Assembly: GCA_017549665.1 (NCBI GenBank)
Contig: JAFYUD010000093.1
Coordinates: 1-30,641 of the forward strand
DNA: 30,641 nucleotides
From: Clostridia bacterium
Lineage (GTDB): Bacteria > Bacillota_A > Clostridia > Oscillospirales > Acutalibacteraceae
Direction of reading: 5' to 3'
The notes below the pieces were generated by a model. The model did not search any database. It had not been told where the DNA came from and saw only the letters and a program-made list of their open reading frames with translations. The translations under genes and the position numbers were made by a program. Below are positions 18,211 through 28,071 of the stretch, piece by piece. Each line of letters opens with the position of its first letter. The stretch's first letter is position 1.

Positions 18211-18594
18211 ATTAGTAATGCATAATGAGCAATTAGCAATTGCAGAAGGGCTGCGCCCTTACCTGTTTTATTTGTAACACTGCAAGGCGGGCGATGAATC
18301 ATCGCCCCTACAGAAAACAATTGGAAATTACAGATAAACAAGGCTCCCTCGTGGAGGGAGGCTGTTGTTTTTGTTAACTGACAGCGTACCCGTAGGGGCG
18401 TTTATCAAACGCCCGTAGGAACAACTTATAATTTCAATAAATTCAGACAGAAGGAATACTGAATTTTACAATGCTTTCGCATTACCACTACAAAGCAATT
18501 AACAGAAATTTACCAATTAATAAAGCCCCCCTTTAAAATAAAAAGGGAGCTTTTTTTAATTGTAAATTGTACACTGTACATTGTAAATTTATTC
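18210..18594. repeat. Non-coding mosaic of palindromes and period-7 arrays
   Basis: This gap of about 385 bases contains no credible gene. In order it holds: a period-7 array with units such as AATTAGT and AATGAGC (18210-18244); a hairpin AAGGGCTGCGCCCTT (18246-18260); the palindrome GGGCGATGAATCATCGCCC followed by CTACAG (18289-18313) and GAAAACAATTGG, the same junction as in C1/C2 but with the intervening spacer missing; the CTCCCTC-GTG-GAGGGAG hairpin (about 18344-18361); GGGCGTTTATCAAACGCCC (18396-18414); about 110 bases of unremarkable sequence; an imperfect hairpin with a T-run (18523-18557); and a TTGTACA-type array (18560-18587), eight bases from the oxidoreductase stop codon. Confidence 0.85.
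18523..18557 (+). terminator. Imperfect hairpin with T-tract, possible bidirectional terminator
   Basis: AAAGCCCCCCTTT pairs imperfectly with AAAGGGAGCTTT across an A-rich loop and is followed by seven T residues on the plus strand. No plus-strand gene ends right before it; on the minus strand it is about 40 bases after the oxidoreductase stop, where the U-run (TTTATTAATT) is weaker. It could serve the oxidoreductase or simply be another repeat module. Confidence 0.45.
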
Positions 18595-19763: not shown

Positions 19764-20099
19764 TCAAAAGACATTTCCGAAACTGAGCCTTTCTGTCTGC
19801 CTGATATTTTCTATATATCCCGTTATCACGCCTCTGCTTTCGGAAATTCCCTCGTCGTTCTTGCTGTCAACTTCCTTTTTCAGCGAAAACATTTCCACGT
19901 CAAGGGCGTCAATATCTTCATTTCCCAGAAACATTCCCAGAAAATCCTTTGTTTCCTGCCACAATTCAAATGCTTCTGCGGCATCCTCCTCAAGCACAGA
20001 ATGAAGCTGACTGAGAATATTATCAACCGCCATATTTTCCCACACGGAAAATCCCAGAGAAACAATAATTATCGAAACTGCGATAATCAGCCTTTTCAT
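19764..20099 (-). CDS. DUF4363-family small membrane-anchored protein
   Basis: The 111-residue product starts MKRLIIAVSIIIVSLGFSVWEN, a single N-terminal membrane helix (about residues 3-18), followed by a charged, helical extracytoplasmic domain. The pattern of an aromatic/acidic helix (DNILSQLHSVLEEDAAEAFELWQ) and the position directly after a DUF421 gene fit DUF4363, a family usually found next to DUF421 in Clostridia. Function unknown. Its ATG overlaps the DUF421 stop by one base, indicating coupled translation and probably a joint complex. Confidence 0.75.
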   Translation of the reverse strand: MKRLIIAVSIIIVSLGFSVWENMAVDNILSQLHSVLEEDAAEAFELWQETKDFLGMFLGNEDIDALDVEMFSLKKEVDSKNDEGISESRGVITGYIENIRQTERLSFGNVF

Positions 20100-20773
20100 C
20101 AGTCAGACTCCTTTTTTATAATATCCGTATTCCCCTCAGGGTCAGAAGTCAGCAGCAGAATGTCATGGGCGCTGAGATTTTTTTCCGCAAGAATCTGCCT
20201 TAGTGCGTTTTCCGTCATGCCGCAGTCGTGCATACCTGACTTTATAATTCTGCCGTCACATATAACAACACACTGAATGGAGGATTTTTCACCCTGAAGA
20301 CAGGTGTCACCTACCGTTACATTGCGTTTTTCGGGCTTGAGCAGTACGCTCAGAGACCCGTCAGTTTCAGCAACGGCATACTGCACATCACTGATGCTGA
20401 AAACGTCCTTTTCCCTGAGTGCTTCAAGCAGGTCATCGACGGTGTAACGCAGCCGTTTCATCTGCTTCTGGTCAAGGACACCGTTTCTGATAATGATAAT
20501 TGAATTTCCCTGAATGAGTGAACGGAATCTGATGCTTTTCATTGCAACTGCCGACATGACAATCTCAGACGCAGCCAGAAGAAGCACAGCTACGATTGAG
20601 TTTATCATTGGAATATCATTATCCTGCATGGGAATTGCCGCCACCTCGGAAATGAGCATTGTAATAACAAGCTCCCCCGGCTGCAGCTGACCTATCTGCC
20701 GTTTGCCCATAACACGCATTATAACGATAAGAAGAATATAGAGAATCAGAGTTCTTGCAACAGTAACATACAT
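20099..20773 (-). CDS. DUF421 (YetF/YcaP-type) membrane protein
   Basis: The 224-residue product has three N-terminal membrane helices (about residues 4-22, 37-51 and 58-76) and a soluble domain. The DUF421 signature is GKRQIGQLQPGELVITMLISEVAAIPMQD near residues 23-51, followed by QGNSIIIIRNGVLDQKQMKRLRYTVDDLLEALREK. DUF421 proteins in spore formers are linked to the spore inner membrane; a DUF421 protein (2Duf) is known to raise spore heat resistance in Bacillus. Here the gene is divergent from a gerA operon, which fits such a role. The ATG at 20773 is chosen because AAGGGTG lies upstream; an in-frame start 18 codons earlier would run through the shared regulatory palindrome. Confidence 0.88.
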   Translation of the reverse strand: MYVTVARTLILYILLIVIMRVMGKRQIGQLQPGELVITMLISEVAAIPMQDNDIPMINSIVAVLLLAASEIVMSAVAMKSIRFRSLIQGNSIIIIRNGVLDQKQMKRLRYTVDDLLEALREKDVFSISDVQYAVAETDGSLSVLLKPEKRNVTVGDTCLQGEKSSIQCVVICDGRIIKSGMHDCGMTENALRQILAEKNLSAHDILLLTSDPEGNTDIIKKESD

Positions 20774-20855
20774 AAAATCACCCTTGTCATTATTCCCCCT
20801 GAGATGAAGAATATTCTTGTACTTCACGGGAATACCAACAAGGGTGAATTTTATG
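20771..20855. promoter_or_regulatory. Divergent quasi-palindromic control region, gerA / DUF421
   Basis: The region from one start codon to the other is an imperfect inverted repeat centred on AAGAATATTCTT (20807-20818). Outward from the centre both arms carry GAATA, a 14-base spacer, GGGAATA (20828-20834 on plus; 20797-20791 on minus), then ACAAGGGTGA and ATTTTATG. GAATA with GGGAATAAT (minus arm) fits the sigma-F-type forespore pattern (GnATA, about 15 bases, GGnnAnAnT); the plus arm has GGGAATACC, one mismatch at the final T. If used, both promoters would share an overlapping -35 and give leaders of only about 10 bases. The symmetry is seen directly; the sigma assignment is inferred. Confidence 0.6.
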
Positions 20856-22397
20856 AAAAATTTTTTCAGCTTTATAAAAAAATCAGAAAAAACCGTTTCT
20901 CAGCCTGTAAAAAATCAGCCTTCTGAAGAAATTCCCGACGGGATACGGCTTTCTCTTGACGAAAATATAAATTCTCTTCGTGAAATGTTCGGTGAAAGCT
21001 TTGACCTTGTTATAAAACAAAGTGATATAAACGGTGTGAAAATCGCATTCGTGCTTCTCGACGGAATGTATAATAATCTTCTTGCATCGGAGGCTGTCAT
21101 TCAGCCTGTGCTGAACACGGATTTTTCCTGCACCGAGCCTGAAATTCTGTCTGAATATATCGTTTCCCACCGTGTGACCGAGTGTGACAGCAAAAAGCTT
21201 ACAACAATGCAGTCTGCCGTTGATATGCTTATTTCGGGATGTCTGCTGTTTTTTATTGACGGTGTGACGGAATGCCGAAGCTTCAGCGTGCAGGGATATC
21301 CGAAAAAGTCCATCGGCTCCCCAGAATCGGAAACTCAGGAAAACGGCTCACACGAAGGCTTCGGGGATATGTACAAGGACAATGTCACACTTGTCAGACG
21401 AAGACTTAAGAATCCCTATGTGCGCTTTGAAACGGTCACGGTAGGTGAAACGAGCCGCACGGCAGTGTGCATGTGTTATCACGCCGGGCGTGCAGACCCC
21501 GTAATCGTAAAAAATATCAAAGAAAAACTTGAAGCAATAAGGCTCGACATTGTGTCCGGTGCAGGCGCAATAAGACCGTTTCTTGAGGAAAAACAGCCGT
21601 CACTTTTTTCCACCACGGGTACAACGGAAAGACCTGATGTCTTTGCCGCAAAAATTGCCGAGGGCAGAGTGGGAATCATAGTTGACGGCACGCCCTATGC
21701 CCTTATAGTGCCTCATCTTTTTATTGAAAATTTCCATTCACTTGACGACTATCTCAGCCGTCCTTACTATGCAACCATATCACGGATACTTAAAATCCTG
21801 TGCTTCTTCCTTGCAGTTTTTCTTCCCGGCACTTACGTTGCCGTAGGCACATTTCATCAGGAAATTTTCCCCTCCGCAATAATCTACGACATTGTGTCCT
21901 CACTTGAGAATACGCCCTTTCCTCTGGTGGTTGAGTCACTTGTCATTCATTTTATATACGAAATCGTCAGGGAGGCAGGACTGAGAATGCCGAAAACAAT
22001 CGGTCATGCAGTCAGCATAGTGGGCGCACTTGTAATCGGTGATGCGGCAGTTTCTGCCGGTCTTATCAGCGCACCTATGCTCATTATCGTTGCAATCACT
22101 GCAATCTGCTCGGCCGTTACATCAAATCTGCATCAGCCCACATCTTTTCTCAGGATGATATTCATCATCACGGGCGGAATAACGGGACTTTTCGGTATAA
22201 TGACAGGCTTTGCACTTATGACAGTCGACATCTGCTCACACAATTCCTTCGGAATCCCCGTAACATCTCCGCTGTCACCCTTTGATGCATACGCCGTGCG
22301 TGACAGCGTGCTTTTCGCAGGGTGGAAATCTGTAGGCAGACGCTTTATAAAAATTCAGGATCTGAAAGGAAGTAATACCGATGCAGACAAAAGCTGA
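20853..22397 (+). CDS. Spore germination protein, GerA family (A subunit)
   Basis: The A subunit of a GerA-type nutrient germinant receptor sits in the spore inner membrane and with the B and C subunits triggers germination. The 514-residue product has a hydrophilic N-terminal domain (about residues 1-285) and a C-terminal region with about five membrane helices. The family block GTTERPDVFAAKIAEGRVGIIVDGTPYALIVP (in two parts, about 255-288) is highly characteristic. The start ATG at 20853 has AAGGGTG upstream; a longer in-frame start lies inside the control palindrome. The gene overlaps gerB by 17 bases. SpoVAF is a relative, but the gerA-gerB-gerC order makes this a receptor operon. The germinant cannot be predicted. 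Confidence 0.95.
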   Translation: MKNFFSFIKKSEKTVSQPVKNQPSEEIPDGIRLSLDENINSLREMFGESFDLVIKQSDINGVKIAFVLLDGMYNNLLASEAVIQPVLNTDFSCTEPEILSEYIVSHRVTECDSKKLTTMQSAVDMLISGCLLFFIDGVTECRSFSVQGYPKKSIGSPESETQENGSHEGFGDMYKDNVTLVRRRLKNPYVRFETVTVGETSRTAVCMCYHAGRADPVIVKNIKEKLEAIRLDIVSGAGAIRPFLEEKQPSLFSTTGTTERPDVFAAKIAEGRVGIIVDGTPYALIVPHLFIENFHSLDDYLSRPYYATISRILKILCFFLAVFLPGTYVAVGTFHQEIFPSAIIYDIVSSLENTPFPLVVESLVIHFIYEIVREAGLRMPKTIGHAVSIVGALVIGDAAVSAGLISAPMLIIVAITAICSAVTSNLHQPTSFLRMIFIITGGITGLFGIMTGFALMTVDICSHNSFGIPVTSPLSPFDAYAVRDSVLFAGWKSVGRRFIKIQDLKGSNTDADKS

Positions 22398-23466
22398 AAT
22401 CACAGCCTTTCAGTTTTATACAATCCTTTTTCTCTCACGCATTTTTTCACTTGTAACTTATATTTCAGGAATCAGGGATGTCCTTTCAACCTCAGCTGAA
22501 ATCCTTTCGGTTGTAATCATGAGCGCAATACTTTTTATCTCGGTGATACCTGCCGCATTGCTTCTGAAAAAAGACAACGGCACTTCAATCCTTACAAGAG
22601 CAGAATGCATTTCGCCGTCATTCAGCAAGCTTCTGTGCGTCATTTACCTTATGTTTTTTATCTACAAAGGAATCACCACAGCATCAAGATTCGAGCTGCT
22701 TTTAGGCTCTGTGATGTTTCCCGAAACCAATGTGCAGTTTTTCGTTGCGATTCTGCTCGTTGCCGCTGTATTCTGTGCATTACGGGGCATTGAAGCATTG
22801 GGCAGAGCAAGTGTGATTTTCCTCGTGCCGGTGCTGTTTGCATTCGGATTTGTCTTTCTGTCACTTGCAGATGATTTCGACATTCTCAATCTGTCAGCAA
22901 TTTACAAAAATGAAGCAAAGGGCATTCTCGACGGCGCCGTTTACTCAGCATCAAGGACAAATGAGGTGGCAGTGATTCCGCTGATGATTCCGTTTGTAAA
23001 AAGACACAGATCAAAGCATCTTTTCATCTGGACAGGAGTTATATCAGCAATCATAATACTGACAGAAGTGATGATATCGGGCGTACTTGGCGGCTTCGGG
23101 GAAAATCAGCTTTTCAATATGTATTCTCTGTCCGTCATCGCAAAGCTGGGCTTCATTGAAAGAATGGATGCAATCATCTCATGTATATGGATGATATGCT
23201 CTGCACTGAAGCTTGCACTGACCTTCTTCGTGTGCAACATTCTTCTGTCTTCCCTTACAGACAAAAGCAGACCGAAGCTTTATATCACCCTTTCGGCTGC
23301 TGTGGTTTTTGCAGGAATGATGGTAATTTCACTGAGCATCGTAAGCTTTGCTCAGCTTATCAGAATCCCTCTTATGACCATTTTTTTCACAGCCACGGCA
23401 ATTGTAATTCCGCTGATTATAATTTTCGCAGAAAAATCAAAGGAGAAAAAACATGAAAAAGCTTAA
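22381..23466 (+). CDS. Spore germination permease, GerB family (B subunit)
   Basis: This 361-residue protein with about ten membrane helices belongs to the amino acid-polyamine-organocation-like GerAB family, thought to hold the germinant-binding site in the spore inner membrane. Hydrophobic segments are spread through the whole length (for example FQFYTILFLSRIFSLVTYISG at the N-terminus, cited here as two pieces: FQFYTILFLS and RIFSLVTYISG). The start ATG at 22381 has GGAAG upstream and overlaps gerA; the end overlaps gerC by 14 bases. The C-terminus is lysine-rich (EKSKEKKHEKA). The assignment rests on topology and operon position between the A and C genes. Confidence 0.92.
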   Translation: MQTKAEITAFQFYTILFLSRIFSLVTYISGIRDVLSTSAEILSVVIMSAILFISVIPAALLLKKDNGTSILTRAECISPSFSKLLCVIYLMFFIYKGITTASRFELLLGSVMFPETNVQFFVAILLVAAVFCALRGIEALGRASVIFLVPVLFAFGFVFLSLADDFDILNLSAIYKNEAKGILDGAVYSASRTNEVAVIPLMIPFVKRHRSKHLFIWTGVISAIIILTEVMISGVLGGFGENQLFNMYSLSVIAKLGFIERMDAIISCIWMICSALKLALTFFVCNILLSSLTDKSRPKLYITLSAAVVFAGMMVISLSIVSFAQLIRIPLMTIFFTATAIVIPLIIIFAEKSKEKKHEKA

Positions 23467-24598
23467 ATTCATACTTCTTCTCCTTGTTATCATCACCTTT
23501 TCATCCTGCATTTCAGACGACACCGAAATCAGAAACCGACTTATCATCGAAGGAATCGGCATTGATTTCGACACCCGGACGGATGAATATATCATCACCG
23601 TACAGGCGTTGTCAACAGCCGCCGCAGGCAACGGGCAATCGGAAGGCACTTCCACACCTGTCACAAATTTCACGGTCAGGGGCAGGTCAGTTGCCTCTGC
23701 ACTCGGTTCTCTTTGCGAAAATACGGGCAGAAATCCCCTTTATTCACAGAACAGAGTAATCGTGCTCGGCTCGCAGATTGACAAAAGCTCAGTCGCTGCG
23801 GCGCTTGATTATCTTGTGCGTGAATACACGGCAAGACCTGATGTATATGTTGCCGCCGCAACGGGAAAGGCTTCTGATATTCTTGAAATTCAGTCAGACG
23901 GTGAAATTCCTGCAAAAATCATAGAAGAATCCATTGATCGCAGTGACGAAAACTCCCTTACAAAAAGCACTCAGCTATATAATCTGGTCAATCTCAGAAG
24001 TGAAAAAACCACTGCCCCGACACTTCCGCTTCTTGAAATCGACAAGGACAGAAACAGAAACAGTGACACCGTCAGGGTAACAGGCACCTGCGTTATAACA
24101 GAAAAGGACAAAAAAAATCACCTGTCCTCCGAAGAGACGGTGATGTTCAGAATTATTACGGATGATGTCAGTCAGGGAACAATAAATATCAGCCTCAACG
24201 GGAAAAATGCAGGACTCGATATCATAAAATCCGACACGGATATCAGTGTGAGCATCACAGACGGACAGCCTCATTTTTCTGTAAAAATAAAATGCAGTCT
24301 TGACCTTGTGGAATACGGCACATCAGATTTCGGCAGTATCGCACGCAGGGATATTGATTCACTGCGTGAAGTTGCGGAAAATCATATTTCTTCAGGTGTC
24401 AGACAGGTGCTTGAAAGACAGCTGAAGGAGGAAAAGTGCGATATTTTCCGTTTCGGCAAATATCTGGAGCTTACCTTTCCCGACGTTTACACTTCTCTTT
24501 CTTCCGATTGGGAAAATGCGCTGCCTTCATTCACTTATGATATTTCATCTGATGTCACGATACGGAAAATCGGACAGGAAACACTTAAAAATCCCTGA
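23453..24598 (+). CDS. Ger(x)C-family germination lipoprotein (C subunit)
   Basis: The 381-residue product begins with a lipoprotein signal peptide ending ITFSSC, so Cys19 is the likely lipidated residue; the LspA in this window would process it. The mature N-terminus, DDTEIRNRLIIEGIGIDFD, is the common Ger(x)C opening (an R-x-x-I-x-G-I-D type pattern). Later family-like features are the GRSVASALGSL segment, the SQNRVIVLGSQ segment and the C-terminal domain from about residue 205. AAAGGAG precedes the ATG. Its TGA stop directly abuts the stop codon of the convergent comF gene with no bases between, and no terminator hairpin is seen, so the two transcripts must overlap. Confidence 0.93.
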   Translation: MKKLKFILLLLVIITFSSCISDDTEIRNRLIIEGIGIDFDTRTDEYIITVQALSTAAAGNGQSEGTSTPVTNFTVRGRSVASALGSLCENTGRNPLYSQNRVIVLGSQIDKSSVAAALDYLVREYTARPDVYVAAATGKASDILEIQSDGEIPAKIIEESIDRSDENSLTKSTQLYNLVNLRSEKTTAPTLPLLEIDKDRNRNSDTVRVTGTCVITEKDKKNHLSSEETVMFRIITDDVSQGTINISLNGKNAGLDIIKSDTDISVSITDGQPHFSVKIKCSLDLVEYGTSDFGSIARRDIDSLREVAENHISSGVRQVLERQLKEEKCDIFRFGKYLELTFPDVYTSLSSDWENALPSFTYDISSDVTIRKIGQETLKNP

Positions 24599-26241: not shown

Positions 26242-28071
26242 TTATCCGAACAATGCCGTAAGAATATATCTGTCACTGTTGAAGAACAGACCTGTTTCAA
26301 CAAGAATGAAATATGTGCCTGCCTCAACATTTGCAGTGAATACGATTTCTTCACTGTTCCAATCAGATGTCTGCTGTGCGATTATGTTACCCTGAGAGTC
26401 GATAACGGAAATTACCCAGCCTTCCTTGTCTGCATCATCCCTGCGGATGTGGTTGAAGCTGACCTGAAGTGTTCCTGCAGCTTCAGTACGCACGCTGAAG
26501 TAGTCCTTATCGTAATCAACACCTGTTGCAATAAGCGCACCGTTTACAGCCTTGCCGAATGCAAGCGTATCTGCCGCAGACGGTATATTGTTAGGCTCTG
26601 TTTCCCATGAGCCGTCCTGTACCGAAAGAAGAATCAGCCTGTAAACTATGCTGTTATGATAAATATTATCAGAATCAATAAGAATATAATACTTACCTGC
26701 CGTAAGACCGATATTGGGTGAATGATGGATTGCATCATTCCAGCGAGAAACGGAGGAGTAAGCAATATTGCCGTTTTCATCCATGACGGTTATATGCCAG
26801 CCGTCCTGCTCCTCAGCAAGAGCTTCATGTATGAAATCAAGCACGACAAAGCCGTCATTTTCCATTTCGAATGCATAATAGTCACGGTCGGACTTGTCAT
26901 TTCTTGCAGTAAGTGAGCCTACAATTTCTGTATTGACAGAAACGGGAGTTGCAGCTTCGGTTGAATCATTGAACTCTGTTTCGATTGCAGAATCCTTTGT
27001 GAATGAAACATTCAGCGCATAAGTGACACCGCTGTATACATGGGAATATACCGTTACAAAATAGAATCCCGGTGAAAGGCCCATGATACCGGAGTTGAGC
27101 GATGCGGCATCCATTCCCGATGTCATATAATAATATTCCTTGCCTTCCATATCAGTGATACGGATACGCCATGCCACACTTGAAACGGCATTTGACTGCC
27201 CTGCTTCGTCAGCCTCATGCTCAAAATAAAGAACAGCATAACCCTTTTCGGTTATCCGGAACATATACCAGTCAACGTCGCTTTCGTCATTTGCATAAGT
27301 TGACGCACTTCCGTTCATCGTAACATCGAGAGACATCTGTGTGTAACGTGTTACGGAGTTGTTAGGCTCCATCTCATAACCGGAAGTTGCGGCAAAACCG
27401 ATTGCTATATCATATTTATCCGCAGTAAAGCCTGAGATACATCTGACAACAACTCTGTAATTACCGGGGGAAACACCCACTGCAGGTGATTTACAAGCCG
27501 AACCCACGGATGAATAAGAAACTCTTTCAATTTCACGGAAAGCAGTTGTTTTGCCTGTGCCGTCGGGAGAATATTCTTCATAAAGCGAAATATACCACAT
27601 GCAGTCCTTTGATTCGGACATGGTATGATTGAAGCCGTAAATGATTACGCCTCTTTCATCAATCGTAAAAGTATATACATTTTCTGAAATCAGAGAAGCA
27701 AGAGAATCCCTTATACTGTTATTGATTTTGACGGGAATAATCTTTACGCCTTCTTTTTCTTCATTTACATCAAAATCCACATCACCCGAATTGTCAATAT
27801 CGGGAAGCACATCATCGGGCTTGATGCTTGTATCGTCACCGGGCAGCTTGTCAGAGCTTTCGTAATCATTGTCAGAATATACTATATCTGTGGATTCCTC
27901 TTCTTTTATGTCAGTAGACAGATAAAGTGTGTCTGAGTAATTCCCCTCAAGTCCCACTGCTTCATCCTCAGGTACGGATGCAACCCTGTCAGGCATGACA
28001 ATCTGAGCCGTCAGCAGAATAACCGCTGCCAGCACAAATGCTATTACTGAATAAACAGGATTTCGTTTCAT
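26242..28071 (-). CDS. Exported protein with four PPC-like (bacterial pre-peptidase C-terminal) repeats
   Basis: The 609-residue product has an N-terminal membrane/signal segment (about residues 7-25), an acidic linker rich in Asp/Glu/Ser (30-110), then four beta-rich repeats at about 112-227, 231-357, 361-483 and 488-609. Repeats 2-4 open with the PPC hallmark E-x-N (MEPNNSV, ETEFNDS, ETEPNNI), followed by D-x-D-x-Y/F segments (DVDWYMFRI, DRDYYAFEM, DKDYFSV) and end in G-x-Y-x-x-x-V patterns (SPGFYFVTV, TAGKYYILID, EAGTYFILVE). PPC domains usually hang on secreted peptidases, but no catalytic domain, anchor motif or dockerin is present. It probably stays at the cell surface by its uncleaved N-terminus and may bind ligands. 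Ribosome site GGAGG precedes the ATG. Confidence 0.8.
   Translation of the reverse strand: MKRNPVYSVIAFVLAAVILLTAQIVMPDRVASVPEDEAVGLEGNYSDTLYLSTDIKEEESTDIVYSDNDYESSDKLPGDDTSIKPDDVLPDIDNSGDVDFDVNEEKEGVKIIPVKINNSIRDSLASLISENVYTFTIDERGVIIYGFNHTMSESKDCMWYISLYEEYSPDGTGKTTAFREIERVSYSSVGSACKSPAVGVSPGNYRVVVRCISGFTADKYDIAIGFAATSGYEMEPNNSVTRYTQMSLDVTMNGSASTYANDESDVDWYMFRITEKGYAVLYFEHEADEAGQSNAVSSVAWRIRITDMEGKEYYYMTSGMDAASLNSGIMGLSPGFYFVTVYSHVYSGVTYALNVSFTKDSAIETEFNDSTEAATPVSVNTEIVGSLTARNDKSDRDYYAFEMENDGFVVLDFIHEALAEEQDGWHITVMDENGNIAYSSVSRWNDAIHHSPNIGLTAGKYYILIDSDNIYHNSIVYRLILLSVQDGSWETEPNNIPSAADTLAFGKAVNGALIATGVDYDKDYFSVRTEAAGTLQVSFNHIRRDDADKEGWVISVIDSQGNIIAQQTSDWNSEEIVFTANVEAGTYFILVETGLFFNSDRYILTALFG

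Follow-up and report, generated by a model that had tools for sequence, protein, structure and literature searches.

Forespore promoters of the sigma-F/sigma-G type carry a -35 element GNATA and a -10 element GGNRANANTR/RANANTR, with 14-16 bp between the two. As far as the accessible sections of the cited papers go, the C. difficile sigma-F/sigma-G consensus is much like that of B. subtilis (PMC3789822), and in B. subtilis PsigG a 14-nt spacer occurs, 15 nt being commoner, and is suboptimal, lengthening helping most in early sporulation (PMC5942855). The bidirectional promoters described by Warman/Grainger in E. coli and Salmonella have a symmetric -10 element in common, and their two starts are usually separated by 18 bp (PMC10268837, accessible sections), and in E. 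coli their basal activity is reported as too low for competition, which was seen only after one direction had been strengthened (PMC12825309, likewise). Among DUF421 proteins, the accessible sections of another report describe YetF, YdfS and 2Duf as forespore-expressed and required for full spore resistance, the B. subtilis genes following a sigma-F/G pattern (PMC10126465), and in PMC3789822 (accessible sections) CD1789, a DUF421 gene of C. difficile, appears under sigma-G. Given this regulation elsewhere, joint forespore expression of a DUF421 gene and a germinant receptor is to be expected. Here we describe an 85-bp region between two such genes which, judging from sequence comparison, is with a probability of roughly 85% a conserved bidirectional forespore promoter.

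In the stretch of DNA analysed (the window, 30,641 nucleotides), the A, B and C subunit genes follow one another in order (20853-24598) as in a gerA-type germinant receptor operon, and a DUF421 gene is transcribed divergently from it (Table 1). A sequence-only reading had delimited the control region between them, and its coordinates were correct, with both ATGs properly placed. The centre of the region, AAGAATATTCTT at 20807-20818, is a perfect 12-base palindrome. Reading outward, both arms were said to present GAATA, 14 bases, GGGAATA, ACAAGGGTGA and ATTTTATG at the same distances; this order holds as far as ACAAGGGTGA, but the final ATTTTATG is one base out of register, due to an extra A in the gerA arm. 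The estimate of about 25 matches in the first 35 positions of the arms was borne out by a count of exactly 25, as was the remark that the spacers differ, only 4 matches being present among the 11 spacer positions that separate octamer and -10. The window's 25 of 35 is the top loop-free (ungapped) 35-base dyad across the 30.6 kb, the runner-up reaching 23.

Table 1. Positions of the control region, its predicted promoter parts and the flanking genes in the window.
Feature	Position	Strand	Details
Divergent control region, ATG to ATG	20771..20855		85 bp
DUF421 start codon ATG	20773-20771	minus	
gerA start codon ATG	20853-20855	plus	
Shared octamer GAATATTC (GNATATNC type), contains both predicted -35 elements	20809..20816		
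Predicted -35 GAATA, gerA-directed promoter	20809..20813	+	matrix score 12.8, 14-bp spacer
Predicted -10 GGGAATACCA, gerA-directed promoter	20828..20837	+	promoter matrix
gerA ribosome site AAGGGTGA	20840..20847	+	sequence reading
Predicted -35 GAATA, DUF421-directed promoter	20812..20816	-	matrix score 16.1, 14-bp spacer
Predicted -10 GGGAATAATG, DUF421-directed promoter	20788..20797	-	promoter matrix
DUF421 ribosome site AAGGGTGA	20778..20785	-	sequence reading
DUF421 (YetF C-terminal domain) gene, 224 aa	20099..20773	-	Pfam PF04239; conserved N-terminus
DUF4363 gene, one-base overlap with DUF421 end	19764..20099	-	Pfam PF14276; only in some relatives
gerA A-subunit gene	20853..22397	+	Pfam PF03323, E 1.8e-145
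gerA B-subunit (Spore_permease) gene	22381..23466	+	Pfam PF03845
gerA C-subunit gene	23453..24598	+	Pfam PF25198 and PF05504

Elsewhere in the window, the next-best dyads lie at 18537, 28245 and 30293 (23, 22 and 22 of 35), the first of them near the ends of two converging genes, where it may be a terminator. The window also encodes, at 26242-28071, a 609-aa protein with weak matches to the Por_Secre_tail and PPC domains, which are unexpected for a Clostridia-like genome.

To collect relatives of the window's GerA, its close homologues were aligned and the alignment was run against genome contigs; the best 80 of 213 were used. DUF421 lies divergently upstream of gerA, within about 0.5 kb, in 77 of these best 80, the three loci with no DUF421 beside gerA being L047, L055 and L056. 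A class-wide sample of 60 genomes, 48 of them with GerA, was represented by 30 loci, each the top match of one of 30 genomes, and none of the 30 had a DUF421 match in the upstream stretch examined (up to about 1.5 kb; 0.4 kb in L203). The pairing of DUF421 with gerA thus seems, on these sequence surveys, to belong to one GerA subfamily. Among viral contigs, 106 stretches fit a pattern and none of them encoded a GerA relative.

The closest loci, L001-L009, come from genomes (G001-G009) that fall within one genus of 11 genomes, and the GerA tree places the window among them; we refer to these ten loci as the window's clade. DUF421 had been read as one half of a DUF421/DUF4363 pair, of which only the first member is constant: a whole-genome search recovered DUF4363 in three of the nine clade genomes (G007, G008 and G009) and not in the other six, and the loci L001-L006 are without it. 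In a set of 18 relatives that includes L001-L006, the frame downstream of DUF421 is DUF4363 by Pfam in 10, these having been preselected for possessing it, and L044 and L065 have a frame that resembles it in look. With only three of nine clade genomes carrying DUF4363, we regard DUF421 as the conserved neighbour and DUF4363 as optional, so that DUF421 may act without it. Two database predictions for relatives of the window's DUF421 protein, P0001 and P0002, begin it 18 residues before the conserved Met, so that their frames extend across the promoter. Of the residues encoded there, P0002 has two changed in the spacer and keeps those covering the -35 and the -10.

The promoter model was trained apart from the gerA-DUF421 region, on gpr and other forespore genes taken from relatives' genomes. 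The gpr gene was located in 19 of 20 genomes, of which 18 loci were used. When the 150 nt upstream of the chosen start were searched, the top site had its end 13-18 nt from that start in 15 of these 18. A consensus-seeded weight matrix was then built from 24 sites, belonging to gpr (15) and to a second PF03862 gene (9); these were retained out of 33 candidates with an imposed distance of 12-20 nt to the start, and their spacers measure 14 (13 sites), 15 (10 sites) or 16 bp (one site). With the same seed, the upstream regions of SASP genes and of spoIIR gave no consistent site, and those of spoVAC gave sites at a common distance (18-21 nt) in only 8 of 14, so that all three were excluded, leaving the matrix with two gene families as its basis. 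Both the matrix and the choice of start codons are simple, and the loci are mostly draft metagenome assemblies. In the window, the forespore -35/-10 pattern is found in both directions and the matrix recognises both arms (Table 1), which supports the earlier proposal of a sigma-F/sigma-G-like promoter pair with overlapping -35 elements. The gerA-directed -10 (AATACCA) has one mismatch, a C where T is usual, and the same is true of 12 of the 27 loci with a shared octamer.

Two other patterns were seen upstream of spore genes. The sequence GCAAACGC occurs within 150 nt of the start in 13 of 13 SASP genes (L102-L114), beginning 36-39 nt before the start in 12 of them, and in none of 60 upstream regions of other spore genes. 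In spoIIR (L145-L157), 11 of 13 upstream regions (last 90 nt) contain a perfect inverted repeat, each arm 8-11 nt long, for example ACCGTCTATCATT...GACAGACGGT, which is possibly a terminator or attenuator; inverted repeats of at least 8 nt were found in 9 of 18 gpr regions, 3 of 15 regions of the second PF03862 gene and none of 14 spoVAC regions.

Two scans were carried out over the 78 regions (77 loci and the window). The first, in which the -10 had to end 9-24 nt before the start, covered 73 regions, L013, L036, L039, L063 and L077 being left out for gap length or lack of a start. In 28 of the 73, each gene had a site of 5 bits or more directed at it, against 0.55 in dinucleotide shuffles; in 20 of those 28 both -35 elements overlap in one octamer, where 0.05 were expected. 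The second, with leaders of any length within the first 260 bp and a cut-off of 6, covered 75 regions (L036, L039 and L063, shorter than 60 bp, being out) and found that 25 of 75 regions, among them the window's own, have the geometry of a shared GNATATNC-type octamer, against 0.08 by shuffles. The remaining 50 have another layout or are without one clear site: some show two good sites at offsets such as -10 or -44, others one clear site, and many loci score weakly in one of the two directions. Since the loci are phylogenetically related, these counts are not independent.

Within the window's clade the geometry is present in 9 of 10 loci, L002 being the exception and L008 tying with another offset. 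Both arms thus retain their -35 and -10 blocks in nine of ten loci while the spacers drift, and the same blocks recur elsewhere in the GerA tree; what relatives keep is therefore not only the ribosome sites, the outcome that would have told against the sequence-only reading. In a quick GerA tree, where L008 and L057 were counted as having another layout, the shared octamer (27 rows) appears in several separate groups, with a minimum of 8 changes, of which well-supported branches force 6, a pattern that fits either an old state often lost or repeated origin. Compactness does not force the geometry, since it persists in the four Anaerotruncus-type loci L043, L061, L065 and L066, whose gaps are 115-128 bp; there the two promoters again come together in one octamer, GGATATTC, and the gerA-directed one has a spacer of 16 bp. 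One of these loci, L061, belongs to Anaerotruncus colihominis DSM 17241, for which a complete genome exists. A degenerate pattern with at most one mismatch and 14-bp spacers only was also searched for in 20 relatives' genomes. It matched 18 places in 12 genomes, nine of which are the gerA-DUF421 region, judged by matching letters, and it misses that region in 11 of the 20; the nine places elsewhere, compared with six for a reversed-pattern control, give no clear excess. A second kind of overlap, in which the -10 of each promoter contains the -35 of the other (offset 22), was found in 6 of 75 regions, for example L037, L044, L049 and L064, with 0.00 expected by shuffles. As GTATT and AATAC are reverse complements, this would be another way of placing two forespore promoters on top of each other.

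In regards to the origin of the symmetry, the idea that it arose by chance, or by inverted duplication of a local segment, and plays no part in promoter function deserves next to no credence. The ribosome sites and ATGs on both sides do inflate the arm match, and the window's 25 of 35 is the maximum among the 27 shared-octamer loci, the next reaching 21, and is reached in no more than 10 of 702 comparisons across loci, so that the likeness of its arms may be partly luck. Yet 2000 mononucleotide shuffles of this 85-bp region never attained 25 (mean 14.4, maximum 21), and the excess of shared geometry over shuffles in the 75 regions speaks against chance as well. The preservation of blocks and loss of spacers among relatives already contradict this explanation, and inverted duplication was rejected.

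The sequence-only reading had offered a binding site for a dimeric regulator as an alternative, and we took this as an operator through which a dimeric forespore regulator (a SpoVT-like protein, for example) would control both genes, the likeness to -35 elements being incidental. The perfect palindrome at the centre of the window speaks for it. We nevertheless consider it decidedly improbable. The centre was compared across the 27 loci kept out of the 29 that score at least 5 at offset 3 (L008 and L057 were excluded, another offset scoring equal or better). Bases two and seven of the octamer are complementary in 13 of 27 loci, against 13.6 expected if they were independent; there is no covariation, the self-complementary centre is not conserved as such, and the operator was rejected. 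Some centres, GTATATTC and GGATATTC among them, lack palindromic symmetry; the geometry is tied to the -10 elements, mostly at 14 bp, and the two arms of one locus agree at 17.7 of 35 positions, scarcely more than the 17.3 for arms taken from different loci. Nor is there symmetry in the spacers, with 2.9 matches of 11 within a locus and 3.3 between loci. Finally, GNATATNC occurs in none of the 24 one-way forespore promoters, and at L047, the one informative locus among the three in which DUF421 did not turn up next to gerA, the gerA-directed site scores 11.1 and the octamer reads GTATGAAA. Two overlapping promoters account for the symmetry better than a dimer operator does, as far as sequence can tell: GNATA set against its own reverse complement gives GNATATNC, so both -35 boxes fit one octamer.

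It could also be that in any species only one direction works, the other decaying or being driven from elsewhere. The full GNATATNC is present in 18 of the 27 loci, and each of the other 9 has TAATA as one of its -35 elements, so that one side may be weaker there; together with the many loci in which one direction has weak sites, this would be in line with such an asymmetry. In the window, however, the two arms score 12.8 and 16.1, and 9 of 10 clade loci keep both sites at 6 or more, and we find this explanation improbable, if less so than the operator.

The -10 elements end 14 nt (DUF421) and 15 nt (gerA) upstream of the start codons. Transcription typically starts 6-7 bases beyond the -10, and the predicted leaders would therefore be about 8-10 bases long, beginning inside the ribosome site AAGGGTGA on both sides. 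A leader of about 10 bases had been called odd, a description that we abandoned: it is usual here, as 15 of 18 gpr loci of the same genomes have their promoter just as near the start.

The bidirectional forespore promoter would thus consist of two sigma-F/sigma-G-type promoters (GNATA, 14 bp, GGNRANANTR-like), one directed towards gerA and one towards DUF421, whose -35 elements overlap by two bases, each spacer beginning within the opposite -35. We infer that forespore RNA polymerase could dock either way round, in one orientation at a time, and this would put both operons on in the same cell and at the same stage. By analogy with the low basal activity, without competition, of the E. coli promoters, such exclusion may not limit expression. 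If element boundaries are counted as in PsigG, the 14-bp spacer hints at late, sigma-G-type use. The conservation of the shared -35 layout argues for function. A broader interpretation, to which we hold only tentatively, the odds being somewhat against it, is that forespore promoter parts, being nearly reverse-complementary (-35 with -35 as GNATATNC, -35 GTATT with -10 AATAC), are used in at least two ways (offsets 3 and 22) to superimpose divergent GerA and DUF421 promoters, with one polymerase-binding event at a time, and that DUF421, with or without DUF4363, is a dedicated partner of the receptor. DUF421 spore membrane proteins, whose role is unclear, are here tied to one GerA subfamily, mostly of uncultured gut bacteria, and this tie makes a functional partnership directly testable.

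In the titles and abstract openings of the open literature that deals with forespore promoters in divergent or overlapping arrangement, or with DUF421 and spore germination, the present layout is not described, which is weak evidence as subscription papers are mostly outside it. YetF, YdfS and 2Duf belong to the same DUF421 family as the window's protein; 2duf sits in spoVA2mob and ydfS is a single gene, and the accessible sections of that report mention a gerA neighbour for neither (PMC10126465). The sigma-F/sigma-G promoters of B. subtilis and C. difficile resemble those predicted in the window in their -35 and -10 elements and spacing, with similar sites before the relatives' gpr, and differ in that here two opposed promoters share one octamer. 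With the Warman/Grainger promoters the control region would have the principle in common that pseudo-symmetric DNA lets polymerase bind in two orientations, the symmetry being seen in the region and the binding predicted. The region is not a member of that class, however, since its -10 elements are apart (20788-20797 and 20828-20837) and only the -35 is shared; its predicted starts are about 60-65 bp apart, its elements are of the forespore type, and protein-coding genes lie on both sides. The concept of symmetric bidirectional promoters would thereby be widened from the sharing of a -10 to the sharing of a -35 by a developmental sigma factor.
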